Of a stretch of DNA of 64,000 nt, positions 353 through 27,787 are shown piece after piece (position 1 is the first letter of the stretch; every line of letters begins with the position of its first letter). The notes below the pieces were generated by a model. It was given only the letters and a program-made list of their open reading frames with translations. It searched no databases and had not been told where the DNA came from. The DNA is from Saccharopolyspora rhizosphaerae. Its GTDB lineage: Bacteria > Actinomycetota > Actinomycetes > Mycobacteriales > Pseudonocardiaceae. Location of the stretch: assembly GCF_003931915.1 (NCBI RefSeq), contig NZ_RSAA01000007.1, forward strand, positions 1-64,000, written 5' to 3'. A program made the translations under genes and the position numbers.

Positions 353-1618
353 CTAGGTCCCGGCGGCGCGGGCTCGGTCCAGAGCAGTAGTCGAGTCCTC
401 CCGTTCGGCCCGTCGAGCCGTGGCGAGCAGGGCCCTCTCGCCGTGGCGGTGCCCGATGAGCTGCACGCCCAAGGGCGCTCCGGCCTCGTCGAACTGGCCG
501 GGCACGGTGGCGGCGGGCAGGCCGAGCGCCTGCCACGGACGGCTCATGACCGGGTCTCCGGTCGCGGCGAGTCCTCGTGGTGCCGGTCCCGGAGCTGCGG
601 GTCCGACGATGGCGTCGCACTCGAGCCGGTCGAGCCGCCGGTTCGCCTCGGTGACGACCTTCCGGGCCGCGGCGTAGTCGTCGTCGCTGGTGGCCGCGCC
701 GGTGCGCAGCAGCGTGGCGAGGTGCTCGCTGATCCGGTCGGCGACGGCGAGTTCGTCAGCGCGTTCCCGCGCCGCTTCGTAGGCCATGACCACCGGGTGG
801 GCCTCGGCGAGTTCGGCGACGAGCACCTCGTGCGGGAACGCGGTGACGACCGCGCCACGGTCGCTGAGGCGCGCGCAGGCGTCGTCCACCGCTGCGCTCA
901 CGGCATCCCCCGCACCCAGGGCGGCTCCGGTCCAGCGCAGCAGTCGGGGTGCCGGTTTCGGGGCTGCTTCCGGGGTTCCGGTGAGCGCCGACCAGGCCAG
1001 GGCGAGGTCTGCGGTGGTGGCGGTGAAGAACCCGTGCGAGTCCAGGCTCGGGGCCAGTCCCACGACGCCGTCGGTGGGGATCCTGCCGTGGCTGAGCACC
1101 AGGGAGGCGACGCCGCAGAAGGCCGCGGGCCGGGTGACCGAACCCGCGGTCTGCGAGCCGATCGCCAGCGGTACGTGCCCGGCGGCCACCGCGGCCGCGG
1201 AGCCGCTCGACGACCCTCCCGGTGTGCGCTCGGGATCGGCCGGGTTGCGGGTGGGACCGGGTGAGAAGTACGCGAACTCGGTCGTCACGGTCTTGCCGAC
1301 CGGGAAGGCCCCGGCCGTGCGCCAGGCCCGGACGATCGCGGCGTCCGAGGGCGCGGGTGGGGCGTCGGCGCGGAGTTCCGTGCCGCAGCGAGTGGGAACG
1401 CCTGCCACGTCGACGATGTCCTTGACCCCGAGTGGGACACCACCCAAAGGCCCTGCGGCAGGCGCGGTTTCATCGAGGGGTTCGACCCACGCGCGCAGGG
1501 CCGGATCGGTGTCGGCGACCTTGGCGCGACTGCGCTCCAGCGCCTCCGCCGGGGTGGTGCGTCCGGCGGTCAGGTCGGCGACCAGCTCGCGCAGCGACCA
1601 GGGTTCACGCAGGTTCAC
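353..1618 (-). CDS. iacH: Amidase-signature hydrolase, IacH-like
   Basis: A 421-aa amidase-signature family enzyme. The Ser-cisSer-Lys triad is visible: Lys66 in GVKDIVD, the cis-serine in the GGSSSGS stretch (134-140) and the nucleophile Ser160 in GSQTAGSVTR. Its length is slightly short for the family (450-500) but the core is complete. The GTG start at 1618 overlaps the TGA of the upstream gene (GTGA), so translation is probably coupled. Amidase alone would be uninformative. Its position in an operon with a small IacI-like protein and a flavin reductase, facing the iacABCDE genes, identifies it as the iac-cluster amidase thought to act on a ring-opened or amide intermediate of indole-3-acetate breakdown. 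The family call is firm; the pathway role comes from synteny. Confidence 0.8.
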   Translation of the reverse strand: MNLREPWSLRELVADLTAGRTTPAEALERSRAKVADTDPALRAWVEPLDETAPAAGPLGGVPLGVKDIVDVAGVPTRCGTELRADAPPAPSDAAIVRAWRTAGAFPVGKTVTTEFAYFSPGPTRNPADPERTPGGSSSGSAAAVAAGHVPLAIGSQTAGSVTRPAAFCGVASLVLSHGRIPTDGVVGLAPSLDSHGFFTATTADLALAWSALTGTPEAAPKPAPRLLRWTGAALGAGDAVSAAVDDACARLSDRGAVVTAFPHEVLVAELAEAHPVVMAYEAARERADELAVADRISEHLATLLRTGAATSDDDYAAARKVVTEANRRLDRLECDAIVGPAAPGPAPRGLAATGDPVMSRPWQALGLPAATVPGQFDEAGAPLGVQLIGHRHGERALLATARRAEREDSTTALDRARAAGT

Positions 1619-1878
1619 GGCTGCTCCCACTCGGCGTTGGCGACCCAGTAGTCCATGCCGGAGGCGCTGACGCCGTGCCGCCACGCGGACGTGCGGCGCA
1701 GCAGCGGCTCCACCCGGGCGGTCGCCGCGTCGGCCGCCTCCGGACCGTCCTCGTCGACGAGCCAGTGCACCCACTCGACCTCGCGGCCCGCCGCGTCGTG
1801 CACGAACAGGTCCACGTGCCGCCAGCCGTAGCCGTGGGTGTCGTTGTAGCAAGTCAGCGTCATGTTCCGGTCATCCAC
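1615..1878 (-). CDS. iacI: Small protein, IacI-like by position
   Basis: A protein of about 87 aa, rich in Trp/Tyr/His, with no signal peptide or membrane segment. The GTG at 1878 is chosen because GGGAG sits six bases upstream and the codon overlaps the flavin reductase stop (1871-1873). A TTG at 1893 or ATG at 1863 are alternatives. It lies between the flavin reductase and the amidase and overlaps both neighbours. In described iac clusters a small protein of unknown function, IacI, accompanies iacG and iacH. I assign the symbol from that context and size, not from a recognised domain. It may be an accessory factor or a small cyclase-like enzyme; the sequence does not decide. Confidence 0.6.
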   Translation of the reverse strand: MDDRNMTLTCYNDTHGYGWRHVDLFVHDAAGREVEWVHWLVDEDGPEAADAATARVEPLLRRTSAWRHGVSASGMDYWVANAEWEQP

Positions 1879-2374
1879 GATGTGCTCCCGCAAGGCTGTG
1901 GAACTCCCGCTGGAAGTACACCAGAGCGCCGCTGCCCGATCGAGTGATCACCCGCTCGACGTCGACGAACATCACCGAGTGCGAGCCCTGCCTGCGCACC
2001 TGGCCGAGCCGGCCGAGGATCGACGCGGCCGCCTCGCGCAGCACCGGCACCTCCGAGAAGTCGCAGACCACACCGGCGAACCGCTCGTGCATCGGCAGCC
2101 CGGTCGCGCCCGCGAACCGCAGCGCCAGCTCCTGCTGGCCGAAGCCGAGGACGTTGACGCAGATCCGCTCGTTGGCGAGCAGCACGTCGTGGGCGCTGCT
2201 GGAGCGGTGCACGCACACCAGCATCGTCGGCGGCTCGTCGGTCACCGAGCACGCGGCGCTGACCGTGATGCCGGCCCGGCCTCGCGGCCCGTCCGTGGTG
2301 ACGATGTTGACCCCGGCCGAGAGGTTCGCCATCGCCGCGCGGAACTCCCGCTGAGCGGGCGTCAGGTCTGCCAC
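1871..2374 (-). CDS. iacG: Flavin reductase (HpaC/IacG-like)
   Basis: A 167-aa protein of the flavin reductase-like FMN-binding split-barrel family, which supplies reduced flavin to two-component monooxygenases. Family-typical features are the N-terminal FRAAMANLSAGVNIVTT segment, the GITVSAACSVTDEPPTMLVCV strand-helix region and a conserved ERFAGV stretch. The GTG start at 2374 has a strong AGGAGG site four bases upstream. An in-frame extension to 2506 reads through a low-quality leader and is rejected. Its likely partner is the acyl-CoA-dehydrogenase-like oxygenase at 4287, giving a IacG-IacA pair for the first hydroxylation of indole-3-acetate. It heads the iacG-iacI-iacH minus-strand unit. 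Confidence 0.85.
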   Translation of the reverse strand: MADLTPAQREFRAAMANLSAGVNIVTTDGPRGRAGITVSAACSVTDEPPTMLVCVHRSSSAHDVLLANERICVNVLGFGQQELALRFAGATGLPMHERFAGVVCDFSEVPVLREAAASILGRLGQVRRQGSHSVMFVDVERVITRSGSGALVYFQREFHSLAGAHRG

Positions 2375-2453
2375 GGTCCCTCCTCCCGGCCGACTCACCA
2401 CGAACCTACGGTCGTCCGGTCCGCCGCTGATATCGAGACTTCCCCGCCACACC

Positions 2454-2469
2454 CTGAAGTTTTCCCCTA
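2454..2469. promoter_or_regulatory. Shared iac promoter motif, copy 1
   Basis: The sequence CTGAAGTTTTCCCCTA lies 80-95 bases upstream of the iacG start. It matches the motif at 4190-4205 in 14 of 16 positions and contains a GAAnnnTTC dyad. Both copies read the same way on the plus strand although the genes diverge. It is a candidate operator for the pathway regulator; this is inference. Confidence 0.5.
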
Positions 2470-2518
2470 GACCTCCCCGCCCAAGCACCCCGCGGCCACC
2501 GAACACCCGAACGGAACA

Positions 2519-2574
2519 CGACGCCGCCGGGCGTCGGAAGTTCCGGTGTCGTGACCAGGGAGGAAGTCCCTCCC
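2519..2574. terminator. Possible terminator after the histidine kinase
   Basis: Two hairpins lie just downstream of the kinase gene. One is a CGACGCC/GGCGTCG stem at 2519-2536 and the other an AGGGA/TCCCT stem near 2558-2572, with a GGAAGTTCC dyad between them. No U-tract is visible, which is usual in actinomycetes. They suggest that the kinase message ends before iacG. Confidence 0.35.
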
Positions 2575-2641
2575 CGGAGTTGGTCGGTTCCAGGGGGCTC
2601 CCCGTCTCCTCGCGGGAGTCGCTGCGGTGTGCGGGGGGGTT

Positions 2642-4132
2642 CTACGCCAGGGGGAGGGAGAAGCCGAAGATCGAGCCGCCGGCCTCCCGGGGCTCGCACC
2701 AGGTGGAGCCGTGCTGGCGGTTGATGATGCGGTAGCTCAGAGCCAGCCCGATGCCGCTGCCGTGCTCCTTGCTGGTGAAGGACTCGGCGAAGAGGTCCTT
2801 CCGCACTCCCCTGCCCCGGTCGGCGACGGTGACGGTGCCGCCCTCGGGCCGGACCTCGGTGACCAGTTCGATCCGCGGGTCCGCGGAGCCGGCTTCGGCC
2901 ATCTCGTCGATGGCGTTGAAGCACAGGTTGAGCACGACCTGGCCGGTGAGCACCCGTTCGCAGCGCACCGGCACCGGTTCCTCGCTCAGCCACACGTCGA
3001 CCTCCACGCCGGCCGCCTCGGCGCGCAACCGGACGAAGTAGAGGCACTCGTCGATGACCGCGTTGAGGTCGACCACCTGCTCGACGTGCTCGAGGTGGCC
3101 CACGAAGGACCGCAGCGCGCCGACGATCGCCGACACCCGGTCGATCTGGCGGTGGGCGCTGTCGAGGCCGTACTCGAGGTGTCCGGTGGTGCCAGCGGGA
3201 ACCCGCCCGGACGACTCCAGCGCCTGCGCGTGAGCGCGGACTCCGGCGAGGAAGTTCGCGGCGGCGGCCAGCGGTTGTCCCAGTTCGTGGGCGATGGCCA
3301 TCGCCATGTCACCCATCGCGGTGTAGCGGGCGAGGTAGTTCTCGTGGCGCAGCTCCAGCTCCCGCCGTTCCTCGCCGCGGACGCGGGTGGAGACGTCGTG
3401 CAGGATCATCAGGAACGCGTCGACGTCCCGCAGACGTTCCAGCCCGCCTTCCAGCGTCACCGGCTCCGTGCCGGGGACCTCGAGGCGCACCGGCGCCACC
3501 GGGTCGGCGGCCTCGGCCGCTTCGGCCCAGGTGATCGGGGTGCCGTCGCGGCGCAACCGTGCGTAGGACTCCAGGAGTCGCCCGACCGGGGGTTCCGTGT
3601 CACCCGACAGACCGAGGTGCGCCAGGGCGGTGTCGGTGGCGAACCGGATCGCGCCCGCCGAGTCGAGCATGAACGCGACCGTGGAGGTGTGGCGCGCCAG
3701 CGCGTCGACGTAGGAGGTGGTCTGGCGCAGTTCGTGCTCCACCCGCTGCTCCCGCTCGACGTCCCGGAACTGCACCATCACCGCAGGACCCTGGGCCAGT
3801 TCGACGCGGACGGCGATCGCGTCGGTGGGGATGACCCGACCCGACCTGGACCGGTAGTGCCACTCGATGCGGCTCATGCCCTTCTCGACCGCCTCCTGCA
3901 GCCACGCGCGGCCGATCACCCGGTCGTACTGCTGCGCGGAGCTGCTCATGTGGTTGGCCTTGAGCGGCCGCAGCTCGGTGACGCTCCACTCCAGCAGGGA
4001 GCACGCGGCCGGGTTGGCCCAGAGGATGTCCTTGGTCGCCGCGTCGTGGATCAGCACGCACAGGTGAGAGGCGTGCATCATCGCGACGAAGTCGGAATCC
4101 ACCAGTTCGGGCGCCTGCGGGTCGACCACCAT
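2642..4132 (-). CDS. PAS-domain sensor histidine kinase
   Basis: A 496-aa cytosolic sensor kinase with no transmembrane segment. Two PAS-like domains (about 15-125 and 140-255) precede a HisKA/HATPase module. The phosphoacceptor His282 lies in AHELGQPLAAA, the N box is NLCFNAIDEM, the G1 box DRGRGVRKD and the G2 box GSGIGLALS. This HELGQP subtype is common in kinases sensing small organic ligands or redox through PAS. It is divergent from iacA and shares that promoter region, so I infer that it controls the auxin-degradation genes. No response regulator is visible in the window. The better-known iac clusters use a MarR regulator, so this would be a different control scheme. The Shine-Dalgarno site is weak. 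Confidence 0.85.
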   Translation of the reverse strand: MVVDPQAPELVDSDFVAMMHASHLCVLIHDAATKDILWANPAACSLLEWSVTELRPLKANHMSSSAQQYDRVIGRAWLQEAVEKGMSRIEWHYRSRSGRVIPTDAIAVRVELAQGPAVMVQFRDVEREQRVEHELRQTTSYVDALARHTSTVAFMLDSAGAIRFATDTALAHLGLSGDTEPPVGRLLESYARLRRDGTPITWAEAAEAADPVAPVRLEVPGTEPVTLEGGLERLRDVDAFLMILHDVSTRVRGEERRELELRHENYLARYTAMGDMAMAIAHELGQPLAAAANFLAGVRAHAQALESSGRVPAGTTGHLEYGLDSAHRQIDRVSAIVGALRSFVGHLEHVEQVVDLNAVIDECLYFVRLRAEAAGVEVDVWLSEEPVPVRCERVLTGQVVLNLCFNAIDEMAEAGSADPRIELVTEVRPEGGTVTVADRGRGVRKDLFAESFTSKEHGSGIGLALSYRIINRQHGSTWCEPREAGGSIFGFSLPLA

Positions 4133-4286
4133 TGGGCCAGGCTAGATCCCGGCGGCCCGGGGAGCGGAGTGGTCGTTCCGCCACCGCGGCTGAAGGATTC
4201 CCCTACCGGGCACCTGGGCAATCCCGATGTCGCGCCGCGTTGCCGCTGCTTAGCGTCGAACAGCAACCGGACACGAGGAGCGTGCC
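4133..4286. promoter_or_regulatory. Divergent kinase/iacA promoter region with motif copy 2
   Basis: This 154-base divergent region holds CTGAAGGATTCCCCTA at 4190-4205, the second copy of the motif upstream of iacG. It lies 82-97 bases before the iacA ATG. A CGAGGAGC ribosome site precedes iacA. The kinase gene lacks an obvious one. Confidence 0.5.
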
Positions 4287-5420
4287 ATGCCCCAGGAATT
4301 CGGTGGCGACGCGGCGTGGGAGGTCGTCCTGGCCGAGCTCGCCGAGCGCCGGGAGGAGTTCCACGCGCAGTCCTACGTACCGCCCGACTTCGTCGGCAGG
4401 CTCAAGGAGCTCGGCCTGTTCCGTGCTTCCACCCCGGCGAGGTTCGGCGGTGAGCCCATGCCACCGCCGGAGTTCCTGCGCCGGGTCGAGCGGATCTCGG
4501 CCGTGGACGGCTCGACCGGCTGGGTGGCCGGTTTCGGCTCCGCCGGGACCTACTTGGCGTGCCTGCCCGTCGACACCCAGGCCGAGCTCTACGCCGACGG
4601 GCCGGACCTGGTCTACGGCGGCGCGATGTTCCCGGTCAACCCGGTCACCCCGACCGAGCGCGGCTACCTGGTCAAGGGCCGGTGGCGGTTCGCCAGCGGA
4701 TGCATGGCCGCGGACGTCCTCAGCGTCGGCATCCCCGGCGACGCCGACGGCGACAACCGGCCGCGCGCGGCGATGCTGCGGCCCGAGCAGGTCGAGATCG
4801 TGCAGAACTGGGACGTCACCGGCATGCGGGCCTCGGGATCGTTCGACGTGGTGGTCGACGGGGTGGAGGTGCCGCGCGAGTGGACGTTCATCCGCGGTGG
4901 CGGGGCGAGCGTGGACGAACCGCTCTACCACTACCCGACCATCGGCTACCAGGCGCAAGTGCACGCCGCCGTGGGCCTGGGCGTGGCGCAGGCGGCCCTG
5001 GACTTCGCCGCCCAGGCCGGGTCCCGCACCGGGGTCACCGGCGCACCTCCGCTGGCCGACCGGGCCTACTACCGCACCGGTTACGCGCAGGCCGTGGCCT
5101 CGATGCGGTCGGCGCGGGCGTTCTACTACGAGCTCGCCGAGGAGGTCTGGGCCGCGGTGGCCGCCGGCCGCGAGGTCACCGACGAGCAGAACGCGCTGGT
5201 CAGGCTCTCCGCCAGCCACCTGGCCGCCACCGCCGCTCAGGTGGTGCACGAGGTGTGCGGGATCTCCGGGACCGCGACCATCGACAACGGCCACCCGCTG
5301 CAGCGGATGCGACAGGACTCGCAGGTGCCCGCGCTGCACGCGTTCCTGATGCCCTCGATGTACGACGCCGCCGGAGCCGTGCTGCTGGGACAGCCGCCGA
5401 CGGTCCCGGGTTTCCGCTGA
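4287..5420 (+). CDS. iacA: Flavin-dependent monooxygenase, IacA-like
   Basis: A 377-aa protein with the acyl-CoA dehydrogenase fold used by group D two-component flavin hydroxylases (HsaA, HpaH/C2 and IacA relatives). The N-terminal helical region is followed by a SAVDGSTGWVAGF segment, the beta-domain GRWRFASGCMAADVLS region and a C-terminal helical bundle containing VHEVCGISG. The catalytic glutamate expected of true acyl-CoA dehydrogenases is not apparent, which favours hydroxylation. It would use FMNH2/FADH2 from the flavin reductase at 1871-2374 to hydroxylate indole-3-acetate. It begins a plus-strand operon with iacB-C-D-E, and the ATG has a good GAGGAG site. The fold is certain; the substrate is inferred from the full cluster. 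Confidence 0.85.
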   Translation: MPQEFGGDAAWEVVLAELAERREEFHAQSYVPPDFVGRLKELGLFRASTPARFGGEPMPPPEFLRRVERISAVDGSTGWVAGFGSAGTYLACLPVDTQAELYADGPDLVYGGAMFPVNPVTPTERGYLVKGRWRFASGCMAADVLSVGIPGDADGDNRPRAAMLRPEQVEIVQNWDVTGMRASGSFDVVVDGVEVPREWTFIRGGGASVDEPLYHYPTIGYQAQVHAAVGLGVAQAALDFAAQAGSRTGVTGAPPLADRAYYRTGYAQAVASMRSARAFYYELAEEVWAAVAAGREVTDEQNALVRLSASHLAATAAQVVHEVCGISGTATIDNGHPLQRMRQDSQVPALHAFLMPSMYDAAGAVLLGQPPTVPGFR

Positions 5421-5439
5421 TCTCGACACAGGAGCTGCC

Positions 5440-5805
5440 ATGACCACCGCCCCGCTGCGCGTGCTGTTCTGCATCGGCATCAACCAGAACTTCTTCGACC
5501 TGCCCCAGGACGGCGTCACCGCCGGTGACGTGTGGACCGCCTTCGTCGAGATGGTGGACGGCGTCAAAGCGCTGCCCGGAGTGGACTTCATCGGCGACAT
5601 CGACGACGACAGCCACGTGGTCGGGCCCTCCGACTCGTGGCCGTGGACCTGCTACCTGCTGGCCGACGTCGACACCCAGGAGACCGTCAAGGCCGCCTGC
5701 AACCTCTTCCGGACCGTCCAGGTCGGACAGTCCGAGTGGAAGCTGTGGAAGTACGCCAAGATCGAGGCCCGGATCGGCCGGGCGCTCACGCCGCGCGAGT
5801 ACTGA
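5440..5805 (+). CDS. iacB: IacB-like small protein
   Basis: A 121-aa soluble protein with no recognised catalytic motif. It is rich in Asp/Trp and ends in IGRALTPREY. It sits 19 bases after iacA and 9 bases before the Rieske oxygenase. A protein of this size in exactly this place is IacB in the iac clusters of Pseudomonas and relatives, where it contributes to converting oxidised indole acetate intermediates; its mechanism is not settled in what I know. The assignment rests mainly on gene order. The predicted fold resembles small ferredoxin-like (dimeric alpha-beta barrel or EthD-type) proteins in composition, but I cannot prove this. Confidence 0.65.
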   Translation: MTTAPLRVLFCIGINQNFFDLPQDGVTAGDVWTAFVEMVDGVKALPGVDFIGDIDDDSHVVGPSDSWPWTCYLLADVDTQETVKAACNLFRTVQVGQSEWKLWKYAKIEARIGRALTPREY

Positions 5806-5814
5806 GGTGCCCCG

Positions 5815-7113
5815 ATGACGACCGAGATCACCGCGAGCAACGTGCACGACCTCGCGCCCGCCGACCTCGTCGCTCCCGACCAGGTGGCCGGGCGGGTCTA
5901 CACCGACCCGGACATCTTCGAGCTGGAGATGACCCGGATCTTCGAGCGGACCTGGGTGTGGGTCGCGCACGACAGCGAGCTGCCCCGTCCGGGCACGTTC
6001 AAGTCGACCCACGTCGGCAGGCAGCCGGTCATCGTCACCCGGGACCGGCAGGGCGAGGTCCGCACGGTGCTCAACCGCTGCCGCCACCGCGGTGCAAGCG
6101 TGTGCGAGCGGAAGACGGGGCGCGCCAGCGGTTTCACCTGTCCCTACCACGCCTGGTCCTACGGCCTGGACGGTTCGCTGCGCGGCGTGCCCTACCCCGA
6201 CGGCTACGCCGGGGTGATGGACCGCAGCGGGATGGGGCTCCAGCGGCTGCGCACCGAGTCCTACGGCGGGATGATCTTCGCGACCTTCGCCGAGGCCCCC
6301 GAGCCGCTGAGCGAGTTCCTCGGCGACGCGCGGACGTGGATCGACCGGTTCCTGAAGCAGGGCGGTGGGTATCCGGTGAAAGTGCTGGGGACGCACCGGT
6401 TCCGGTACCGCGGTAACTGGAAGATCCAGCTGGAGAACACCACCGACGGCTACCACTTCCCGATCGTGCACCGGTCCTGGATGGCGTCGGTGGACGCCGA
6501 AACGGCGAACATGATGAGCTTCATGACCGACCCCGAGGCCATCACCCACGACCTCGGCGGCGGGCACTCGGTCATGCAGATGGTTCCCGAGCACTCCGAC
6601 CTCGACGCGGACGACGGCACGGAGAAGCTGCAGGACCGCTTCTCACCCCTGATCTCCCAGCTGGAATCGGTCGGCGTCGAGCCGGCCGAGATCCGCCGGT
6701 TGGTGCGCGCGATGCACGGGACCGGTTTCAACCTCAACCTGTTCCCGAACGTGTCGATGTCGATCTCGTTCTTCCGGGTGCTGCGCCCGATCAGCGTGGG
6801 CGAGACCGAGATCGAGCACATCGCGATCGGCCCGGACGGGCCGCCGGAGATCACCGGACCGGTCAACCGCGAGCGGTTGCGCGCGCACGAGCACTTCCAA
6901 GGGCCGTTCGGCTTCGGCACGCCCGATGACGCCGAGGGGTGGGACCGCGTGCAGCGCGGCACCGCCGCGGCCCCGGAGATGCCGATCATGGTCAACCGCG
7001 GCCTGGGACGCGAGAAGCCGTCCCCCGAAGGCTGGCCGACTTCCCACGTCACCGACGAGACCGGCATGCGCGCCGCCTACGAGCAGTGGAAGCGGATGAT
7101 GCACGATGACTGA
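5815..7113 (+). CDS. iacC: Rieske ring-hydroxylating dioxygenase alpha subunit
   Basis: A 432-aa oxygenase large subunit. The Rieske [2Fe-2S] ligands are complete: Cys89-x-His91 (NRCRH) and Cys109-x2-His112 (TCPYH). The catalytic domain carries the mononuclear iron motif DGYHFPIVH (about residues 208-216), with the bridging Asp. It is probably the terminal oxygenase component acting on a hydroxylated indole acetate intermediate or its anthranilate-like product en route to catechol. It overlaps the beta subunit gene by eight bases. No dedicated ferredoxin or reductase gene is beside it, so electron donors must come from elsewhere. Confidence 0.88.
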   Translation: MTTEITASNVHDLAPADLVAPDQVAGRVYTDPDIFELEMTRIFERTWVWVAHDSELPRPGTFKSTHVGRQPVIVTRDRQGEVRTVLNRCRHRGASVCERKTGRASGFTCPYHAWSYGLDGSLRGVPYPDGYAGVMDRSGMGLQRLRTESYGGMIFATFAEAPEPLSEFLGDARTWIDRFLKQGGGYPVKVLGTHRFRYRGNWKIQLENTTDGYHFPIVHRSWMASVDAETANMMSFMTDPEAITHDLGGGHSVMQMVPEHSDLDADDGTEKLQDRFSPLISQLESVGVEPAEIRRLVRAMHGTGFNLNLFPNVSMSISFFRVLRPISVGETEIEHIAIGPDGPPEITGPVNRERLRAHEHFQGPFGFGTPDDAEGWDRVQRGTAAAPEMPIMVNRGLGREKPSPEGWPTSHVTDETGMRAAYEQWKRMMHDD

Positions 7114-7606
7114 CCTGCAGGCCCCGACGACGCTCGGCGACGTGCGCGTGACCCGCGCGGTCGAACTGGTGTGGCGCGAAGCCGACCTGCTCGACCGCAA
7201 GGACTACGCCACCTGGCAGGAGCTCTACGCCGACCACGGCATCTACGTCATCCCGATCGACCGCGACGCCGAGGAGTTCGACGACGTCCTCAACATGGTC
7301 TACGACGACAAGCGGATGCGGCGGTTGCGGGTGAACCGGATGACCGAGGGCTACGCGATCGCCGCCGTGGACGCGGCGACCACCGTCCGCACCGTCTCCC
7401 GCTTCGTGCCCACCGCGGTGAGCGACACCGAGGTGTCGTTGCGCGCCGCGCAGGTGCTGGTCGCCTACAAGCGCGGCACCCACGACCTGTGGGCCGCCGA
7501 CGTCGACTACACGATCCGGCTGGGAACTCCGGACACCATCGCGCGCAAAGTGGTTCGCCTCGTCAACAGCGAGGACGCCGTGCCGGCAGCGGGATTCCTG
7601 CTGTGA
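7106..7606 (+). CDS. iacD: Ring-hydroxylating dioxygenase beta subunit
   Basis: A 166-aa protein of the NTF2-like/ring-hydroxylating dioxygenase beta-subunit family. The signatures are the EADLLDRKDYATWQELYADHGIYVIP segment (typical 'E..LLD...y..Wl.ly..d..Y.vP' pattern) and the following DRDAEEFDDVLNMVYDDKRMRRLRV region. It probably forms an alpha3beta3 complex with the preceding alpha subunit. The ATG lies inside the last codons of iacC. Its own stop overlaps the GTG of the next gene, so the three are translationally coupled. Confidence 0.85.
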   Translation: MTDLQAPTTLGDVRVTRAVELVWREADLLDRKDYATWQELYADHGIYVIPIDRDAEEFDDVLNMVYDDKRMRRLRVNRMTEGYAIAAVDAATTVRTVSRFVPTAVSDTEVSLRAAQVLVAYKRGTHDLWAADVDYTIRLGTPDTIARKVVRLVNSEDAVPAAGFLL

Positions 7607-8337
7607 GCGCCGTCGTCACCGGAGCGGCGGGCGGGCTGGGCGCGGCCATCACCCGGCGGCTGCACGCCGACGGGCACGCCGTGGCGCTCGCCGACGTCGA
7701 CGGGAACGGTGCTCGCGAGCTGGCCACCGCGCTGGACGCCACCGGCCGGACCGCACGGGGCTACGCCACCGACGTCGCCGACCGCAGCGCCCTCACCGAG
7801 CTGCTGGACGCGGTGCTTGCCGACCTCGGCCCGGTGGAGGTGCTGGTGAACAACGCGGCCAGGACGCGGGCCACGCCGCTGTTCGAGATCACCCCGGAGG
7901 AACTCGACGAGGTCATGTCGGTGAACTTCACCGGCACCTTCCAGGCCTGCCAGGTCTTCGGCGCGCACATGGCCGAGCGGAGCTACGGCCGGATCGTGAA
8001 CGTGGCCTCGCTGGCCGGGCAGAACGGCGGGACGGCCACGGGCGGGCACTACGCCTCGTCCAAGGGCGCGGTCATGTCGGCCACCAAGGTCTTCGCCCGG
8101 GAGCTGGCACCGCGGGGCGTCACGGTGAACGCCGTCTCTCCCGGCCCGCAGGACTCGCCGGTGGTCCGCGACATCGTCGGCGAGGAGAACCTCGAGTCCT
8201 TCCAGCGCGCCATCCCCGTCGGACGCCTCGGCGATCCGGCGTTCATCGCGGACGTGGTCTCCCTGCTCGCCTCCCCGGGCGCCCACTCGGTCACCGGCGC
8301 GTGCTGGGACGTCAACGGCGGGTTGCACATGCGGTGA
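7603..8337 (+). CDS. iacE: Short-chain dehydrogenase/reductase, IacE-like
   Basis: A 244-aa classical SDR. It has a TGAAGGLG cofactor loop at the N-terminus, an NNAA strand motif, the catalytic Ser in NVASLAGQ and the YxxxK pair in YASSK. The GTG start at 7603 overlaps the iacD stop (GTGA); an upstream in-frame extension is only a shadow of iacD. It closes the iacABCDE order and should interconvert a hydroxy/keto intermediate of indole-3-acetate degradation with NAD(P)(H). The enzyme class is secure and the substrate inferred. Confidence 0.82.
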   Translation: MSAVVTGAAGGLGAAITRRLHADGHAVALADVDGNGARELATALDATGRTARGYATDVADRSALTELLDAVLADLGPVEVLVNNAARTRATPLFEITPEELDEVMSVNFTGTFQACQVFGAHMAERSYGRIVNVASLAGQNGGTATGGHYASSKGAVMSATKVFARELAPRGVTVNAVSPGPQDSPVVRDIVGEENLESFQRAIPVGRLGDPAFIADVVSLLASPGAHSVTGACWDVNGGLHMR

Positions 8338-8447
8338 GTCCGAATTGTCTCAGTTGCGTAACGCAGCGAACCTCCTGCGCCCCAGGGCGTTTCAACAGCA
8401 TCACCCCGCGGCGACCGCCGATCGGGACCTGATGAGGGAGGAACGAC

Positions 8448-9032
8448 ATGCGCACACCCACGACCGGCACCCTGGTGCTGCTGGGACTGGTGGCCACGTT
8501 GGCCACGGCACCGGTGGCGCTGGCCGCGACCACGGAACCCGCTCCGCCGGAACCCACGTCGGAGGAGCCCACCACCGAACCGACCTCCCCATACCCGCCG
8601 CCTTCGCCGTCGATGCACATCATGGGCGACGGACGGCCGCAGCCCGGGGACGAGATCGGTGTCGCGGTGCACTGCCCGGTCGAACCGCGCAAGGCCACGT
8701 CCCCGGTGCTGACCATCGGCGAGTACGAGCGGAGGGACCACCCGTCCGGCATGGACGTCTGGGTCGCGCCGGCGACCATCGACCTGCACACCGTGCCGGG
8801 CGACTACCCGGTCAGGGCGTGGTGCGAGCGCGAGCACCTCAAGTGGACCTTCAGGGTGTTCCCCGCGGACTCCGCCGGTGACGACGGTGAAGCCGCGCCG
8901 CCCGCGGTCGAGAAGCCCTCGAAGCCGGCCGGTTCCTCGGCCTCGCAGGTCAGCCGGGTTCCGAATGGGGCGCCCGAGACCGGCGGCGGCCCTGGTGAGC
9001 TGAGCGTTCTCGGCCACGCGGGAAACCGGTGA
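8448..9032 (+). CDS. Exported Pro/Thr-rich protein with GAPETGGG tail
   Basis: A 194-aa protein that begins with a signal peptide (hydrophobic core LVLLGLVATLATAPVALAA, cleavage near residue 27). A low-complexity Pro/Glu/Thr linker follows to about residue 55. A compact domain with two Cys (AVHCPVEP and RAWCERE) comes next, then a second flexible stretch ending in VPNGAPETGGG. The tail resembles the sorting-like motif seen in proteins beside class F sortases. Here no hydrophobic anchor and only a short polar end follow it. The gene has a clear GGAGG site and overlaps the sortase gene (GTGA), so the two are an operon. It is probably a cell-surface protein of unknown role. Confidence 0.75.
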   Translation: MRTPTTGTLVLLGLVATLATAPVALAATTEPAPPEPTSEEPTTEPTSPYPPPSPSMHIMGDGRPQPGDEIGVAVHCPVEPRKATSPVLTIGEYERRDHPSGMDVWVAPATIDLHTVPGDYPVRAWCEREHLKWTFRVFPADSAGDDGEAAPPAVEKPSKPAGSSASQVSRVPNGAPETGGGPGELSVLGHAGNR

Positions 9033-9616
9033 GCCGGATCCGCGCGGTGCTGTTCGCGGCACTGATCCTGCTCGCCGGGTGCGGTGGGCCCACTCCCGGC
9101 CCCACCGCACCACCCGCCGACGCGGGCACCGCGCTCCCGTCCTCGACCACCGCACTGCCGCCGTCGAACCCGGTGCACCTGCGCATCCCGTCCATCGGTG
9201 CCGCTTCCACGCTCGTGCCGCTCGGCCTCAACCCCGACGACACGGTGGAGGTGCCGCCCGTGGAGGCGCCGATGCAGGCCGGCTGGTACCGGTACGGGCC
9301 CACGCCCGGGGAGCTGGGTCCAGCGGTGGTGCTCGGTCACGTCGACGGTGGTGGCCGCGACGGGATCTTCGCGCGGTTGCGGGAGATCGCCGTCGGTGAC
9401 CAGGTGTTCGTGACGCGTGAAGATGGCGGGACGGCGACCTTCACCGTCACGCGGGTCGTGCAGGTGCCGAAGGCCCGTTTCCCCAGCGAGGAGGTCTACG
9501 GCGACACGGGTGCCGTCGAGCTGCGGCTGATCACGTGCGGCGGTTCCTTCGACCGGGAGCGCGGCAGTTACCGCGACAACGTCATCGCCTACGCGACGTT
9601 GAGCGGCGCCGGGTGA
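9029..9616 (+). CDS. Class F sortase (lipoprotein-type)
   Basis: A 195-aa sortase. The catalytic triad is visible: His in LGHVDG, Cys in LRLITCGG and Arg in the GSYRDNVI segment. The N-terminus has a lipobox (LLAGC), so the enzyme is probably lipid-anchored outside the membrane, followed by a Pro/Thr spacer. The spacing and the LRIPSIG-to-ATSLVPLGL beta strands fit the class F group of actinobacteria. The GTG at 9029 overlaps the preceding stop. It should act on, or with, the exported partner encoded just upstream. Confidence 0.87.
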   Translation: MSRIRAVLFAALILLAGCGGPTPGPTAPPADAGTALPSSTTALPPSNPVHLRIPSIGAASTLVPLGLNPDDTVEVPPVEAPMQAGWYRYGPTPGELGPAVVLGHVDGGGRDGIFARLREIAVGDQVFVTREDGGTATFTVTRVVQVPKARFPSEEVYGDTGAVELRLITCGGSFDRERGSYRDNVIAYATLSGAG

Positions 9617-11947: not shown

Positions 11948-12874
11948 ATGCCACTCGACCCGCGTCGCCTGCTGCTCCTGCGCACCGTCCGGCGGACCGG
12001 CAGCGTGCTCGCCGCCGCGCGGCTGCTCCACCTCACCCCCTCCGGGGTGTCGCAGCACCTGTCGAAGTTGGAGAACGAGCTGGGCATCGACCTGGTCGAC
12101 CGGGAGCAGCGCGGTGGTGGGCGGACGATCCGGTTCACCCCGGCGGGCAACGCGCTGGCCGATCGGGCCGACCGGGTCGCCGAGGCACTCGCGGAGGCCG
12201 AGCGCGACGTCGAGCAGTTCCGCGAAGGGCCTGCCGGTCCGTTGCGGATCGGGGGTTTCTCGGTGGCGCTCAGCGAGCTGGCGGCGCCCGTGGCCATGCG
12301 CATGGCCGCGGCGAACCCCGCGCTGGACCCGCAGCTCTCCGAGATCTCCGAGTCCGAGCGCATGCACGCGCTCCTCGCCGGGGACCTCGACCTGATCCTC
12401 AGCGAACGACCCGGCGACGACGGCCCGGAACGCCCTCCGGGGGTCGTCGAGGTGGACCTGATGCGCGACCCGTTCCGGGTGGTCGTCCCGGCCACGTGGC
12501 CGTCGGACTCGGAACCGGAAACCCTGCTCGCCCGGCGGTGGATCACCACGTCGTTCGGTCCTGCGACCCGTCGCCACCTGGAGAGGATGTGCCGCGAGCA
12601 CGGGCTCGAGCTCGACGCCTACGACATCGGCACCGGCACCGCCCCGACGCTGCTGGGCCTGGTCGCCCACGGGCTCGGCGCGACGATCATCCCGGCGCTG
12701 ACGCTGCGGCAGAACCCGTCGCCGAACGTGCGCCTGAGCAACGCCATCGCGGACCCGGGTTCGCGGGTGCTCACCTGCTTGCACCGGGACAACGCCCCGG
12801 CGCTCGTGCACCACGTGATCAACGAGCTGCGCCACCACGCCGCGACCGAGTTGCAGCACGTACCGTCGGGTTGA
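11948..12874 (+). CDS. LysR-family transcriptional regulator
   Basis: A 308-aa LysR regulator. The N-terminal winged HTH occupies about residues 1-65 (VLAAARLLHLTPSGVSQHLSKLE recognition region) and is followed by a linker helix rich in Glu/Arg and a periplasmic-binding-like effector domain. It lies 25 bases before the DUF4185 gene on the same strand and is divergent from the small helical protein. The effector is unknown. The N-terminal MPLDPRRLLLLRTV is a typical start for the family. Confidence 0.88.
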   Translation: MPLDPRRLLLLRTVRRTGSVLAAARLLHLTPSGVSQHLSKLENELGIDLVDREQRGGGRTIRFTPAGNALADRADRVAEALAEAERDVEQFREGPAGPLRIGGFSVALSELAAPVAMRMAAANPALDPQLSEISESERMHALLAGDLDLILSERPGDDGPERPPGVVEVDLMRDPFRVVVPATWPSDSEPETLLARRWITTSFGPATRRHLERMCREHGLELDAYDIGTGTAPTLLGLVAHGLGATIIPALTLRQNPSPNVRLSNAIADPGSRVLTCLHRDNAPALVHHVINELRHHAATELQHVPSG

Positions 12875-21452: not shown

Positions 21453-22904
21453 TCACCTCCGGCGCAGTTCCACGGGGAGGCCGTCGACCGGGACCGGGAG
21501 GGAGACGTAGTCCCACTTGACCTCGTAGTCCTGCGGGACCGTCCAGGTGTAGCCCCGGAGCATCTCGTGCAGCAGGAGCTTCACCTCGAGCGTCCCGAAG
21601 TGCAGGCCGATGCACTTGTGCGCGCCGCCACCGAACGGCACCCACGCGAACCGGTGGGACTTGTCCTCCCGGCGCGATTCGGAGAAGCGCTCGGGGTCGA
21701 AGTCGAACGGGTTCGTCCAGTGGTCGGCGGAGTAGTGGTTGAGGACCGGCGACACGCCGACCATCGTCCCGGCGGGCAGGTGGTGGCCGAGGACGTCGGT
21801 GTCGCGGACGGTCGTGCGCACCATCGACGGCACCGGCGCGACCAGCCGCAACGACTCCTTGATCACCAGGTCCAGCGTCTCCAGCCGTTCCAGCGCCTCG
21901 ATGTCGGGGATGTCGTCGCCCAGCGCGAGGGATTCCGCCCGGGCCCGCTCCTGCCACTCGGGGTGCTTGGCCAGGAAGTAGGCCACCGCCGTGCTGGTGA
22001 TGGTGGACGTGTCGTGGGCGGCCATCATCAGGAAGATCATGTGGTTGATGACGTCGTCATCGCTGAACTGCTCGCCGTCGTCGCTGCGCGCGTGGCACAG
22101 CGCCGAGAACAGGTCGTCGCCGTCGGACCGGCGCGCGCGGCCGATGTTGTCGGCGAAGTAGCGCTCCAGCAGCTTGCGCCCGTTCACCCCCGCCGCCCAG
22201 CGGCCGCCGGGAACGGGGTAGCGCACGATGGCGGTCGCCGCGCGCACCGAGTCGACGAAGGCGCGGTTGATGCGGTCGGCGTCCTCACCGCTGCGCTGGT
22301 CCATGAACACGCGGGTGGCCACGTCGAGCGTGAGCTGCTTGAGCAGCCAGTACAGCCGCGGCCGGTGCTGCCCGCCCCAGGAGCCGACGCCTTCGCGCAG
22401 GGTGGGACCCATCTGCTCGACGTAGCCGGTGAGGCGTTTCCGGGTGAAGGCCTGCTGCATGATGCGCCGGTGCGACATGTGCTCGTCGAAGTCCAGCAGC
22501 ATCAAGCCGCGGTGGAAGAACGTGTCGATGAGCGCCCGCCAACCGCCTTGCGAGAAGGCCTTGTCCTTGTTGACCAGGGCGATGGAGGTCGCTTCGGGCC
22601 CGCCGAGGGTGACCATGCGCTGGCCGAGGGAGTAGGCCCAGGAGATCGGTCCGTAGAGCTGGTAGCGACGCAGCGCGAAGGAGGGGCCGTAGCGCATGAA
22701 GTCCAGCGAGTGGCCGATGACCGGCGGGCCGGCGTCGCCGAGGATGGGCTTGAGCCCGCTTCCGGGCGGTGGGGGCGCGAGTTCGGTGACCGGCCAGCGC
22801 TTTTCGAGGATCCGCTGGTCCACGGCACGCGGTAGCGGCAGCGACGTGATCGGCGGGACTCTCCGTCTGATCGCTTCGTTGACCTTCTCCAGCTGGAAGA
22901 CCAC
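21453..22904 (-). CDS. Cytochrome P450
   Basis: A 483-aa P450. The I-helix oxygen-binding motif is AAHDTST, the K-helix ExxR is KESLR, and the haem-ligand loop is FGGGAHKCIG with Cys at about 431. There is no N-terminal membrane anchor, as usual in bacteria. The N-terminal half (FDEHMSHRRIMQQAFTRKRLTGYV) and the FGGG loop resemble the CYP51/CYP136-like sterol or lipid clan more than antibiotic P450s, but the family is not certain. It lies 300 bases downstream of the mce operon on the same strand, so it may oxidise an imported lipid or sterol. The GTG start follows GGGGAGGAGC. No ferredoxin is adjacent. Confidence 0.9.
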   Translation of the reverse strand: MVFQLEKVNEAIRRRVPPITSLPLPRAVDQRILEKRWPVTELAPPPPGSGLKPILGDAGPPVIGHSLDFMRYGPSFALRRYQLYGPISWAYSLGQRMVTLGGPEATSIALVNKDKAFSQGGWRALIDTFFHRGLMLLDFDEHMSHRRIMQQAFTRKRLTGYVEQMGPTLREGVGSWGGQHRPRLYWLLKQLTLDVATRVFMDQRSGEDADRINRAFVDSVRAATAIVRYPVPGGRWAAGVNGRKLLERYFADNIGRARRSDGDDLFSALCHARSDDGEQFSDDDVINHMIFLMMAAHDTSTITSTAVAYFLAKHPEWQERARAESLALGDDIPDIEALERLETLDLVIKESLRLVAPVPSMVRTTVRDTDVLGHHLPAGTMVGVSPVLNHYSADHWTNPFDFDPERFSESRREDKSHRFAWVPFGGGAHKCIGLHFGTLEVKLLLHEMLRGYTWTVPQDYEVKWDYVSLPVPVDGLPVELRRR

Positions 22905-23204: not shown

Positions 23205-23732
23205 TCAGACGGTGTCCATCTTGGACACGCGCCACTCCTCGCCCACCTGCTCCAAGGTCACCCGCACCCTGGCGCCCTCGATGAGCGGGGTGGTCTGGCG
23301 GCTGCTGGTGGTGAGCTGGTTGATGAACGCCAGCACCACCACCTGCTGGTCGTCGCCGCGGACGACGCCGAGCGCGGACAGCGTGGTGCGGGTGCTGATC
23401 CGGTCGCGGACGGCGGCGGGACGGATCATGGTCCGCTGCAGTTCGAGGTAATCGCGGGCGAACCCGCCGGTCACCGAGCGTTCCGCGGCGGCGAGGTCGC
23501 GGTCGAGGGTGTCGTGGGCGTAGCTGAGGATGGCGGAGATCCGCTCGCCGGCCGCCCGGGTGGCTTCCGCGCGGGCCGCCTCGACCCGCGCGGCCGAGTC
23601 CTGCCGCGCGTGCAGCACCGCGACGGCCGCGGTGACCGCCAGCAGCACCAGCACGGCCAGTACCGGAAGAGTCCTGCGGCGCTTCGGTTCCGGGGTCGGC
23701 TCGGTCGTCTCGACGGTGTCGGTCGTGGTCAT
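23205..23732 (-). CDS. Mce-associated membrane protein 2
   Basis: A 175-aa protein with a cytosolic Thr/Pro/Glu N-terminus, one transmembrane helix (about 22-42) and an extracytoplasmic alpha+beta (NTF2-like) domain. The sequence ends in VGEEWRVSKMDTV, typical of Mce-associated (Mas/Mam) proteins, which stabilise Mce transport complexes. It is the last gene of the operon and overlaps the previous gene by ATGA. Confidence 0.82.
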   Translation of the reverse strand: MTTTDTVETTEPTPEPKRRRTLPVLAVLVLLAVTAAVAVLHARQDSAARVEAARAEATRAAGERISAILSYAHDTLDRDLAAAERSVTGGFARDYLELQRTMIRPAAVRDRISTRTTLSALGVVRGDDQQVVVLAFINQLTTSSRQTTPLIEGARVRVTLEQVGEEWRVSKMDTV

Positions 23733-24229
23733 GGCACGAACTCCAGGTTGGCGACGAGCCAGGTCTCGGCCGTCTTCTCGAGGGTGATGCGCAGCCGGTA
23801 CTGGCGCTGCTGGCCTTCCGGCGCGGCCGCGTTGCCGACGGTGGCCCGCACGGCGGCCAGCGCGACCGCGGTGCGGCCGTCGGAGTGCGACAGGGCCGCC
23901 TCCACGACCTCGCCCCGCGAGGTGACCTGCGAGCCGGTGACGATGTCGCGGAAAGCGGTGGTCTGCTGGGCGAACTGGTCCGCGAAGGCACCGGTCGCCA
24001 GCGCGGCCAGCCGCTGGGTGTCCTGCTCGACGGTCTGAGCGCTGATGTTGGTGAGCCCGAGCGCCGCCTGCCGGGCCACGGCGACCGCGCGCCGGTCGGA
24101 CTCGTCCTTCGCCGCCGCCGCGGCGGCCGCGTTGTGGAAGTGGGTGCCCGCCACGACGAGCACTACCAGCAGCAGCACCGCCACCACGAGTCCGGTGGTG
24201 CGCCTCACTTCAGCAGCAGATCGCGCCAC
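23729..24229 (-). CDS. Mce-associated membrane protein 1
   Basis: A 166-aa paralogue of the next gene with one transmembrane helix (about 12-30) and an external domain ending in EKTAETWLVANLEFVP. The GTG at 24229 is preferred because GGAGG lies nine bases before it, even though it overlaps mceF by 25 bases. A GTGA-coupled GTG at 24208 is an alternative. It probably supports assembly of the MceA-F complex in the cell envelope. Confidence 0.8.
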   Translation of the reverse strand: MARSAAEVRRTTGLVVAVLLLVVLVVAGTHFHNAAAAAAAKDESDRRAVAVARQAALGLTNISAQTVEQDTQRLAALATGAFADQFAQQTTAFRDIVTGSQVTSRGEVVEAALSHSDGRTAVALAAVRATVGNAAAPEGQQRQYRLRITLEKTAETWLVANLEFVP

Positions 24230-25500
24230 GTCCGCTCCTCCCCTCTCGGTTGTTGCCGCACGTCGCCCAGCAGGACCAGGTGTCCGTCGGGCAGCAGGGC
24301 GCCCCCGGTGCTCGGGTCGTAGGGCGCCACGACTTCCTCCGGGCGCGCTCCGCAGGAGGCCGCGGTCGGGCCGCGCCGGGTCGGGTCGTTGGCGCACGGG
24401 TAGTTCCGCGCTCCCCGCACCGAGCGCGGGTCGTCCGGGGCGACCTTGCAGTACTGGTCCCGGGGCGTCTCCGCGGGCGTTCCGTCGTCGAAGGAGCGCT
24501 GCTGCGACATCGGCGTGTACCCGGTGTAGCAGGGCGGTGTGCTGTTGACCGAGACGCGGATGCCCAGGTGGGCGCTGGCCGGTGCGGCTCCCGGCTGCTG
24601 GACGACGCGTTGCAGCGCCGCGGTGACCGCGGGGTAGAGCACCAGGGTTTGCGACACGCCCGGCAGTTGGGTGCGTACCACCTGGCCCGTGGCCTCCAGG
24701 TCGGCCAGCAGCTGCGGGAGCGCGGGGGTCAACCGGTCCTGCAGGCCGATCAGCTCGTCAGCGGCAGGCGGGGTGTGGGCGAACACGCCGCGCAGGTCGG
24801 CGTCGCTGCGGCGCAACTGCTCGGTGAACACGGCGAGATCCCGCAGGCTGGAACGGGTTTCGGGCGCGACCTGCTGCTGGGTGCGCAGGAACGGGCCGAG
24901 TTCGCGGATGAGGTCGACGGTGGGTTCGAGGTTGAGCCCGGCCTGGTGCAGCACGGTCCTGGTGTTCTCCAGCAGGGCCGTGACCTGCGGCTCCTTCCCG
25001 CCCAGCCCGGTGGTGAGCTCGTCGAGGACGACGGTGAGCTCGTCCTGCGGTACCGAGGCGGCGAGGTCGTTGAGGCTGGTGATGAGCACGTCGGTGCGCG
25101 GCAGCGTTGTCGTGGCGGTGATCTGGTCGCCCGGTTGCAACCACGGTGGCCCGTTCGCGGTGGGCGTGAGGTTGACCGACTGCTCGCCGATCGCGGACTT
25201 GCTGCGGATCGCGGCGTGCAGCCGGGCCGGGACGCGCACGTCGTCGTCGATGCCGAGCGTGGCGACCGCGGTGCCGTCGCCGAGGTCGACCGACCGCACC
25301 TTGCCGATCTCCACGTCCCGGTAGCCGACCATCGCGCCCGGGTGCAACCCGGTGGCGTCGGGGAACACGGCGGTGACCTCGTACTGCCCGAAGCCGAGCA
25401 GCTGGCGCAGGTCGAGGTAGTTCACCAGCACCGTGCCGACGCCGAACACGGTGAGCACGGCGAACACCGCGAGCTGCAGCCGGATCCGTCTCGTCAGCAT
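24205..25500 (-). CDS. mceF: MceF, mammalian-cell-entry substrate-binding protein
   Basis: A 431-aa protein with an N-terminal signal anchor and an MlaD/MCE domain (about 35-115, QYEVTAVFPDATGLHPGAMVGYRDVEIGKV). A long helical region and a Cys-containing C-terminal tail with PCYTGYTP follow. Six different Mce proteins assemble into a hydrophobic tunnel that carries lipids from the envelope to the YrbE permease. This is the sixth. It overlaps mceE by one base (TGATG). Confidence 0.9.
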   Translation of the reverse strand: MLTRRIRLQLAVFAVLTVFGVGTVLVNYLDLRQLLGFGQYEVTAVFPDATGLHPGAMVGYRDVEIGKVRSVDLGDGTAVATLGIDDDVRVPARLHAAIRSKSAIGEQSVNLTPTANGPPWLQPGDQITATTTLPRTDVLITSLNDLAASVPQDELTVVLDELTTGLGGKEPQVTALLENTRTVLHQAGLNLEPTVDLIRELGPFLRTQQQVAPETRSSLRDLAVFTEQLRRSDADLRGVFAHTPPAADELIGLQDRLTPALPQLLADLEATGQVVRTQLPGVSQTLVLYPAVTAALQRVVQQPGAAPASAHLGIRVSVNSTPPCYTGYTPMSQQRSFDDGTPAETPRDQYCKVAPDDPRSVRGARNYPCANDPTRRGPTAASCGARPEEVVAPYDPSTGGALLPDGHLVLLGDVRQQPRGEERTWRDLLLK

Positions 25501-26672: not shown

Positions 26673-27787
26673 CACGGCCCTCCCGGCGGTGGCTGCTGGT
26701 GCGGGTTGCCGGTGCGATGCAGCGGGTCGAGGCCGATCGGCGGGTGCGGCGTGTCGAGGGGCTTGAGCAGCGGGTCCAGAGCGGCCCGGCAGTCGTCGAT
26801 GGTGCCGCCCGCGGAGAAGACCATCTGGCAGGTGAGGCTGGAAACGCTCGCGGTGTAAGGCATCTGGACGCGTGTGCTGGCGGAGCCGGTGGCCGGTTCG
26901 TAGACGTTGTAGAGGTTGGCCAGCGCGTGCGGCGCGATGTGCAGCACCTCGGCGAGGTCGGCGCGGCTGGCGGCCAGCGTGGCGCCGACGTCGCGCAGCT
27001 CGCCGACGGTGTCGCCGAGCTGCCGGCCGTGGGTGCGGGTGAAGTCGGTGAGGGTGACCAGTGCCCGGTCGGAGGCGGCCAGCGCCTGCCCGAGGGCGGC
27101 CCGGTTGTCCTCGGCGAGCGCGCTGATCGACGCGAGCTGGGTGGAGAAGGCCCGCAGCCGGTCCTGGCTCGCGTTGAGGCTCGTGGTGAACTCCTCGAGG
27201 TTCCGCAGGCTGGTGAACAGGTCCTCGCTGCCCGCCGCGACCGTGGTGGAGGTGCCCGCGAGCTGGTCGAGGGTGCGGCGGAACTCGGCTCCGTTGCCGC
27301 CGAGGTTGGCCGCGCCCGCTTCGATCGCCCGGGACACGGCGCCGGAGCGGTTGGCACCGCCCGGGCCGAGCGCCTGGGCGAGCTCGGTGAGCTCGGCGTT
27401 GGTCTGGTCCCACTCGGCGGGCACCACCGTGCGCGACTGCGGGATCTCGGCGTCGTCGGGCAGCACCGGTCCGCCCCGGTAGACCGGGGCGAGTTGCAGG
27501 TACCGGCCGCTGACCAGGCTGGGCGCCACGAGCGCGACGGAGGTGTCGGCCGGGACCTTGCGGTCGGCGTCGTAGCTGAAGCGGATCCGCACGCCGCTGC
27601 CCTCGGGGACGATCTCGTCGACCTCGCCGACCCGCACGCCCAGCACCCGCACCTCGTCGTCGACGTGGATGCCGCTCGCGCTCGGGAAGTGCGCGGTGGC
27701 GTGCTTGGTCCGCTCGGTGGTCAGCAGGAGCACCGCGGCGGACAGGAGCAGCACGCCGAGCAGGACGGCCAGCACTCGCCGGGTCAT
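26672..27787 (-). CDS. mceD: MceD, Mce-family protein
   Basis: A 371-aa protein with one N-terminal hydrophobic segment, an MCE domain at about 35-115 (THFPSASGIHVDDEVRVLGVRVGEVDEI-like pattern) and a helical region that forms the tunnel. The C-terminus contains a Cys pair (LTCQMVF and DDCRAAL) and a Pro/His tail. It overlaps mceC by ATGA and mceE by one base. It is one of six subunits of the lipid import complex. Confidence 0.9.
   Translation of the reverse strand: MTRRVLAVLLGVLLLSAAVLLLTTERTKHATAHFPSASGIHVDDEVRVLGVRVGEVDEIVPEGSGVRIRFSYDADRKVPADTSVALVAPSLVSGRYLQLAPVYRGGPVLPDDAEIPQSRTVVPAEWDQTNAELTELAQALGPGGANRSGAVSRAIEAGAANLGGNGAEFRRTLDQLAGTSTTVAAGSEDLFTSLRNLEEFTTSLNASQDRLRAFSTQLASISALAEDNRAALGQALAASDRALVTLTDFTRTHGRQLGDTVGELRDVGATLAASRADLAEVLHIAPHALANLYNVYEPATGSASTRVQMPYTASVSSLTCQMVFSAGGTIDDCRAALDPLLKPLDTPHPPIGLDPLHRTGNPHQQPPPGGP

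Follow-up and report, generated by a model that had tools for sequence, protein, structure and literature searches.

A 64,000-nucleotide stretch of DNA (here called the window; G000:C32:1-64000) belongs to contig C32 of a 34-contig genome from a Saccharopolyspora-like host, and its left edge is the contig end. At this end, between positions 353 and 8337, lies a gene cluster whose very probable function is degradation of the plant hormone auxin. We conclude with considerable confidence that the window holds the larger part of an actinobacterial-type iac locus for the aerobic catabolism of indole-3-acetic acid (IAA). Two parts of the locus appear to be new: a conserved 82-amino-acid protein, S, and a regulon that would be governed by a sensor kinase, K, and a response regulator, J. 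We tentatively postulate, while rating the whole proposal at a little under an even chance, that the PAS kinase signals to a FixJ-like regulator acting on a CTGAAGNNNTCCCCTA operator at three transcription units, and that S is an obligate partner of the Rieske oxygenase IacC/D, serving as a missing catalyst or subunit of the stage between dioxindole-3-acetic acid (DOAA) and catechol, with a predicted fold for which Foldseek returned no match in the PDB.

The forward strand carries genes for an IacA-like flavin monooxygenase with the acyl-CoA-dehydrogenase fold (4287 to 5420; PF08028, E = 6.7e-18), IacB (5440 to 5805, recognized by its match to the IacB proteins of reference clusters), the Rieske oxygenase alpha subunit IacC (5815 to 7113; PF00355, E = 1.3e-19, and PF00848, E = 5.9e-15), the beta subunit IacD (7106 to 7606, overlapping the end of IacC; PF00866, E = 1.7e-11), and the short-chain dehydrogenase (SDR) IacE (7603 to 8337, with SDR motifs). 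IacE begins at a GTG inside the overlap with the IacD stop, and its listed open reading frame (ORF; 7171 to 8337) is too long. Encoded on the reverse strand are an IacH-like amidase (353 to 1618; PF01425, E = 8.9e-60, with amidase motifs), S (1615 to 1863, overlapping the amidase start), an IacG-like flavin reductase (about 1871 to 2374; PF01613, E = 2.3e-32; its start is tentative, and the longest ORF reaches 2506), and K, a PAS sensor histidine kinase (2642 to 4132; HATPase_c, E = 1.4e-14, PAS, and HisKA, the last below its cutoff). The ORF listed for the amidase (353 to 1852) is likewise too long and overruns the upstream gene in another frame. All of the iac genes named in the first-pass annotation were located on the strands it gave, by ORF listing and Pfam and NCBIfam scans, which confirmed its layout of flavin reductase, small protein, and amidase on one strand and monooxygenase, IacB, Rieske alpha and beta subunits, and SDR on the other. 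Catalytic motifs are intact in IacC (CxH...CxxH and DxxHxxxxH), IacE (TGxxxGLG, NNA, and YxxxK), IacH, and the kinase; because of this, and because the gene set recurs in related loci, a chance grouping of genes is excluded.

We compared these proteins with three reference clusters on plasmids of Acinetobacter (L081), Klebsiella (L082), and Rhodococcus (L084). Identities to all three were 39 to 50% for IacA, 55 to 61% for IacB, 54 to 69% for IacC, 37 to 51% for IacD, and 50 to 52% for IacE, and two of the three IacB counterparts are annotated “IacB protein” in their records. The IacG-like protein is 44% identical to the reductase of the Klebsiella cluster and 29% identical to that of the Acinetobacter cluster. 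These values, which include the direct comparison of 4287 to 5420 and 5815 to 7113 with cluster IacA and IacC, bear out, together with the IacB marker, the earlier call of an iac-like cluster. HsaA, which the first-pass annotation had named as a best match that would speak against IacA, was rejected as an identity for 4287 to 5420 (129.4 bits against an NCBIfam equivalog cutoff of 450), as was the oxygenase of p-hydroxyphenylacetate hydroxylase (90 bits; cutoff, 650). IacC is not a benzoate or anthranilate dioxygenase, as its scores lie far below the curated NCBIfam cutoffs. The available text of PMC9613470 treats iacA, iacB, and iacI as iac marker genes; IacA and IacB are encoded in the window, and IacI is on a second contig, C2. 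An adjacent iacC and iacD pair and homologues of iacE, iacG, and iacH are also present. The iac clusters are best known in Proteobacteria. Auxin degradation loci of Actinobacteria have already been published, although the available text does not state their type (PMC9613470).

Taken alone, the window implies that the organism lacks IacI. A search of its own genome rejected this, returning an 85% match close to the end of C2, where genes for a major facilitator superfamily (MFS) transporter (T), IacI (SnoaL_4, E = 4.8e-21), and a REC-LuxR response regulator (J) are found. The gene set first read from the sequence was incomplete in this respect. For comparison, 84 loci were fetched, comprising the best 80 of 207 confirmed relatives and four plasmid loci; 79 are actinobacterial and 5 are proteobacterial. 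In the Saccharopolyspora relatives L001 to L005, T-I-J directly adjoins (H)-S-G-K and A-B-C-D-E. An 18-base inverted repeat, TAGTAGTGCTTTGTTAGG, is located at the ends of both C2 and C32 (75 to 92 in the window, reverse strand), and all six of its copies in the genome are no more than 93 bases from the end of a contig. The split of the locus is apparently due to a repeated element; on the simplest reading, an insertion element between J and H, its transposase not seen, broke the assembly. The six contig ends with this repeat probably represent three element copies that break the assembly, one of them within the iac locus.

The small protein beside the amidase had been taken for IacI, a reading that was not borne out. 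Because 64 of the 79 actinobacterial loci hold matches to both S and IacI, and because two reference IacI proteins (175 and 186 amino acids) gave no S match, we rejected that identity and regard S as a protein of another kind. S had no Pfam or NCBIfam match at E values up to 10, and when 41 members were searched against Pfam, unrelated models were matched by at most two members, at E values of 0.1 or worse. Invariant residues occupy 30 of the 82 positions in an alignment of 41 sequences, selected from 70 (those of 69 loci plus the window). An AlphaFold2 model of S (predicted local distance difference test [pLDDT] score, 94) has the elements b-b-b-a-b-b-b in order and gave no Foldseek match in the PDB or BFVD at an E value of 0.001. 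Antibody chains, the best PDB matches by sequence (E = 0.003 to 0.004), were judged to be chance hits and rejected as relatives. S and H lie within 300 bases of each other in 57 of the 66 loci that have both and, counted separately, on the same strand in 57 of 66.

Of the 79 actinobacterial loci, 69 have an S match, and every one of these also has IacC; the 5 proteobacterial loci gave no S match. Among 297 genomes of the window's family, 41 have S, and the identical 41 have an IacC orthologue (E ≤ 1e-120). IacB is more widespread: 53 of these genomes encode it, all 41 S genomes included, and S was not matched in any of the 12 that have IacB without an IacC match. Such co-occurrence counts are inflated by relatedness between the genomes, but the contrast between IacB and IacC persists in the same sampling. 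Because S tracks IacC and not IacB, we infer that S belongs to the IacC/D-dependent stage of the pathway and not to its first two steps.

Fourteen genomes or records behind the loci were also searched, with all S candidates scored except in the large G708 and G709, where 150 each were scored; G708 has S, and G709 had none among those 150. Ten of the 14 are actinobacterial: S is present in all six that have IacC and was not found in the four that lack it. Three of the loci, L032 (Amycolatopsis), L047, and L079, belong to the same family as the window and could be repeats from the 297-genome survey, and the other seven are counted as outside that family. All seven are concordant, with S and IacC both present in L064, L067, L075, L078, and L084 and neither in L074 or L077. 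Three of the four proteobacterial records have IacC, and none has S. The places matched in G702 are identical to those in G654, and 74 bases separate the S match from the IacC match in Streptomyces sp. SID10853. In a 396-genome sample of the phylum, in which the best 14 or fewer candidates were scored in the listed genomes, S was found in the window's genome alone. A search of 72,556 plasmid records found S in 3, each of them actinobacterial and each also carrying IacB and IacC; 23 plasmid records have IacC at an E value of 1e-150, and the 20 without S are all from proteobacterial genera. Two S matches (G459 and G704) contain an internal stop.

Four loci (L047, L074, L077, and L079) consist of A-B-E and K-J with no IacC orthologue, S, I, or F nearby, and none of the four genomes gave an IacC orthologue (E = 1e-100) or S; these organisms may convert IAA to DOAA only. 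On the linear plasmid of Rhodococcus sp. USK13 (L084), S is about 34 kb from IacC, and the iac genes adjoin genes for catechol 1,2-dioxygenase, muconate/chloromuconate cycloisomerase, maleylacetate reductase, and a cyclase family protein.

The first-pass annotation credited the locus with its own regulator. A regulator gene is present, at 2642 to 4132; it encodes the PAS histidine kinase K, with an H-box (HELGQP) at residue 282, and its presumed partner J is on C2. Matches to K were found in 76 and to J in 74 of the 79 actinobacterial loci, with both in 74, and neither was found in the 5 proteobacterial loci. According to the available text of PMC9613470, aerobic IAA degradation loci have one or two MarR regulators, the exception being P. 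phytofirmans, with a LysR regulator. The MarR (or LysR) regulator expected of an iac cluster was not found among the iac genes here. Two MarR queries matched none of the 79 actinobacterial loci and nothing in the window or L095, the rest of the genome being outside that search; a LysR gene lies at 11948 to 12874, 3.6 kb from IacE. In the titles and abstract openings of the open PMC papers that our literature searches listed, we found no mention of a two-component regulator or an extra small protein in an iac locus.

A common motif precedes these genes. A TAGG-N6-CTTC dyad is present in 50 of 70 distinct K-A intergenic regions and in none of one shuffled set, in which no dyad rose above 9. Across 86 sequences, the window included, the K-A interval has 53 occurrences of CTGAAGNNNTCCCCTA with at most one mismatch, the G-K interval has 27, and assigned gene bodies have none; with up to two mismatches, the motif is found between K and A in 56 of the 86. 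The window contains two exact copies, both at iac promoters and both candidate operators for the response regulator, one upstream of G-S-H (2454 to 2469, forward strand) and one in the divergent K/A promoter (4190 to 4205, forward strand), with no further copies at two mismatches. A third copy, with one mismatch, precedes T-I-J. The orientation of the copies is mixed, and their distance to the gene they precede is 82 bases for A, 80 for G, 106 for T, and 58 for K. Two exact copies occur in the whole genome, against 0.08 expected from base composition, with the GC content of the window taken for that of the genome. It is only the exact copies and their placement that support the motif. A guessed palindrome, TGTN9ACA, was rejected, its frequency being no higher than chance.

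The P. putida iac set includes iacF, a reductase gene, which was not found in this locus. IacF matches were found in 66 of the 79 actinobacterial loci, and eight loci have C without F (L001 to L005, L018, L028, and L029). Because no IacF orthologue was found, there is no dedicated reductase to assign to the Rieske step; because iacF is not one of the three markers, we retain the locus as an iac variant. The window's genome has 10 matches related to IacF, the nearest of which adjoins another Rieske-type gene. It also encodes a catechol branch, with catA (TIGR02438, 484.8 bits; cutoff, 404.4), catC (144.7 bits; cutoff, 130.6), and, adjoining them, a muconate-cycloisomerase-like gene that scored 193.8 bits, below its cutoff of 334.95. 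For IacB, a model built from the window's protein and 33 of 46 nonredundant relatives (mean pLDDT, 85.6) came nearest in the PDB to the ferredoxin-like dimeric alpha-beta-barrels MhuD, methylmuconolactone methylisomerase, YgiN, and SnoaB, with a best E value of 1.4e-3 and none at 0.001; this predicted likeness may serve as a lead. SnoaB is a cofactor-independent oxygenase, and the likeness, taken with the SnoaL-type IacI, is reminiscent of IifA, a two-domain protein of indole degradation; part of this comparison is drawn in the available text of PMC7225977.

We propose that the carrier T would take up IAA, that IacA with IacG would oxidize it, and that IacE, perhaps with IacB, would form DOAA; homology suggests these two enzymatic steps, both of which are reported for proteobacterial relatives. 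IacC/D, perhaps with electrons from a source other than IacF, would then convert DOAA to catechol together with IacI, IacH, and S, and CatA, CatB, and CatC would degrade catechol by ortho cleavage. K may sense IAA or a product of it and phosphorylate the FixJ-like J, which in turn would activate T-I-J, G-S-H, and A-B-C-D-E through one common operator. The organism would thereby degrade IAA and may interact with plants.

Other readings of the same genes were weighed. A different indole or N-heteroaromatic acid, for instance indole-3-propionate or a conjugate of IAA, might be the main substrate and IAA itself only a secondary one, but we consider this very improbable. Caballeronia IacA and IacE convert several indole acids (available text of PMC7225977), and IacH is distant from the proteobacterial sets examined, in which S was not found; homologues of IacA, B, C, D, E, G, and I, the three iac markers among them, are nevertheless all present. 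The pathway of this clade might also end at DOAA, with the Rieske step idle without IacF, so that auxin is inactivated and its ring is not used as carbon. The lack of an IacF orthologue in G000 to G008 is consistent with this, as are five loci that have A-B-E without a nearby C, four of whose genomes gave no IacC orthologue (E = 1e-100). We find it highly unlikely, however, given that C, D, I, and S are open and 80 to 92% identical within the clade and that the genome holds the IacF-related reductases and the catechol branch.

For S, a regulatory or protective role outside the catabolic chemistry, the protein being inherited with the operon, seems unlikely. In its favor, no fold or family match assigns S a function, and in the window it sits in a unit with G and H and not with C/D. 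Such a role fits poorly with the way S follows IacC and neither IacB nor the kinase, as in the 12 IacB-only family genomes and in L047, L074, L077, and L079, which have K and J and whose genomes gave neither IacC nor S, and it fits poorly with the many invariant positions. It is quite unlikely, in our estimation, that K and J respond to something else, such as oxygen in the manner of FixLJ, while a different regulator, such as the LysR protein at 11948 to 12874, controls the iac genes. J does resemble FixJ (208.5 bits), but short of the NCBIfam cutoff of 255, and K reaches just 127.2 bits against a FixL cutoff of 850. P. phytofirmans does use a LysR regulator, but a close match to the LysR protein of the window was found in only 2 of the 84 other loci (L001 and L002), several of the stretches ending near 3.6 kb, whereas K and J occur together in nearly all actinobacterial loci.

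Several observations weigh against the proposed model. IacH is just 30 to 31% identical to the amidases of the Acinetobacter and Klebsiella clusters, and L003 and L004 gave no match to H. The adjacency of C2 and C32 is likely rather than observed. Searches for an IacF orthologue gave none in the window's genome (best match, 40% identical) or in genomes G001 to G008 of the eight loci without F (best, 37 to 42%); two true orthologues, used as the yardstick, are 67% identical. Absences in the family survey are less firm than presences, as the best 18 or fewer S candidates and 5 or fewer IacC candidates were scored per genome, and the absences in the 396-genome sample rest on a similarly capped scoring. 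With one mismatch allowed, CTGAAGNNNTCCCCTA has four sites genome-wide (the two exact copies in the window, the one before T-I-J, and one elsewhere) against 3.8 expected and 2 for a reversed control, and when two are allowed, the window's count of 2 is attained in 9 of 100 shuffled versions of it. The literature, as far as its available text goes, yielded no biochemistry of an actinobacterial member.

The steps from DOAA to catechol have no assigned enzymes in the available text of PMC7225977 and PMC9613470. S, found in the family exactly where an IacC orthologue is found, gives that gap a concrete gene. Alongside MarR and LysR, K and J would be a third kind of regulator of auxin catabolism, and they might serve as an auxin biosensor. 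The partial loci, which have A-B-E but lack C-D, point to actinobacteria that inactivate auxin and go no further, a matter relevant to the tuning of this hormone by microbes.

Directly downstream of IacE, 8448 to 9616 encodes a protein that by eye appears to be secreted and, after it, one with a sortase domain; these genes were matched in L002 and L005 alone of the fetched loci and are probably unrelated. Farther along, a long run of tightly packed predicted genes occupies 23205 to 32572 on the reverse strand, adjoined by a cytochrome P450 gene at 21453 to 22904.

Among known systems, the MarR-type iac clusters of Proteobacteria (P. putida 1290 type; L081 and L082) resemble this locus in their IacA, B, C, D, E, G, H, and I homologues, in catechol as the likely product, and in having catechol genes in the genome. 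In L081 and L082, the genes form a single H-A-B-I-C-D-E-F-G run with a MarR gene, whereas the locus described here has three units, no IacF found, the K/J pair, and the extra protein S, and its catechol genes are elsewhere in the genome. The LysR-regulated iac genes of Paraburkholderia are likewise split and include MFS transporters (iacT2AG and iacCD are separate in LB400, according to the available text of PMC11676955); they differ in having LysR in place of a two-component pair and in having IacF, and another Paraburkholderia record, PREW-6R, gave no S match. FixL-FixJ combine a PAS-HisKA kinase with a REC-LuxR regulator, as K and J do, and are the top-scoring NCBIfam models for them; both scores fall under the curated cutoffs, and the gene context differs. 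The iad locus of Variovorax and Bradyrhizobium also places a Rieske oxygenase in an auxin degradation operon. Pfam scans of the genes of 353 to 9616 and of the three C2 genes, made without a genome-wide search, showed none of the iadA/iotA or iadB/iorB types; the iac markers IacA, IacB, and IacI are present.

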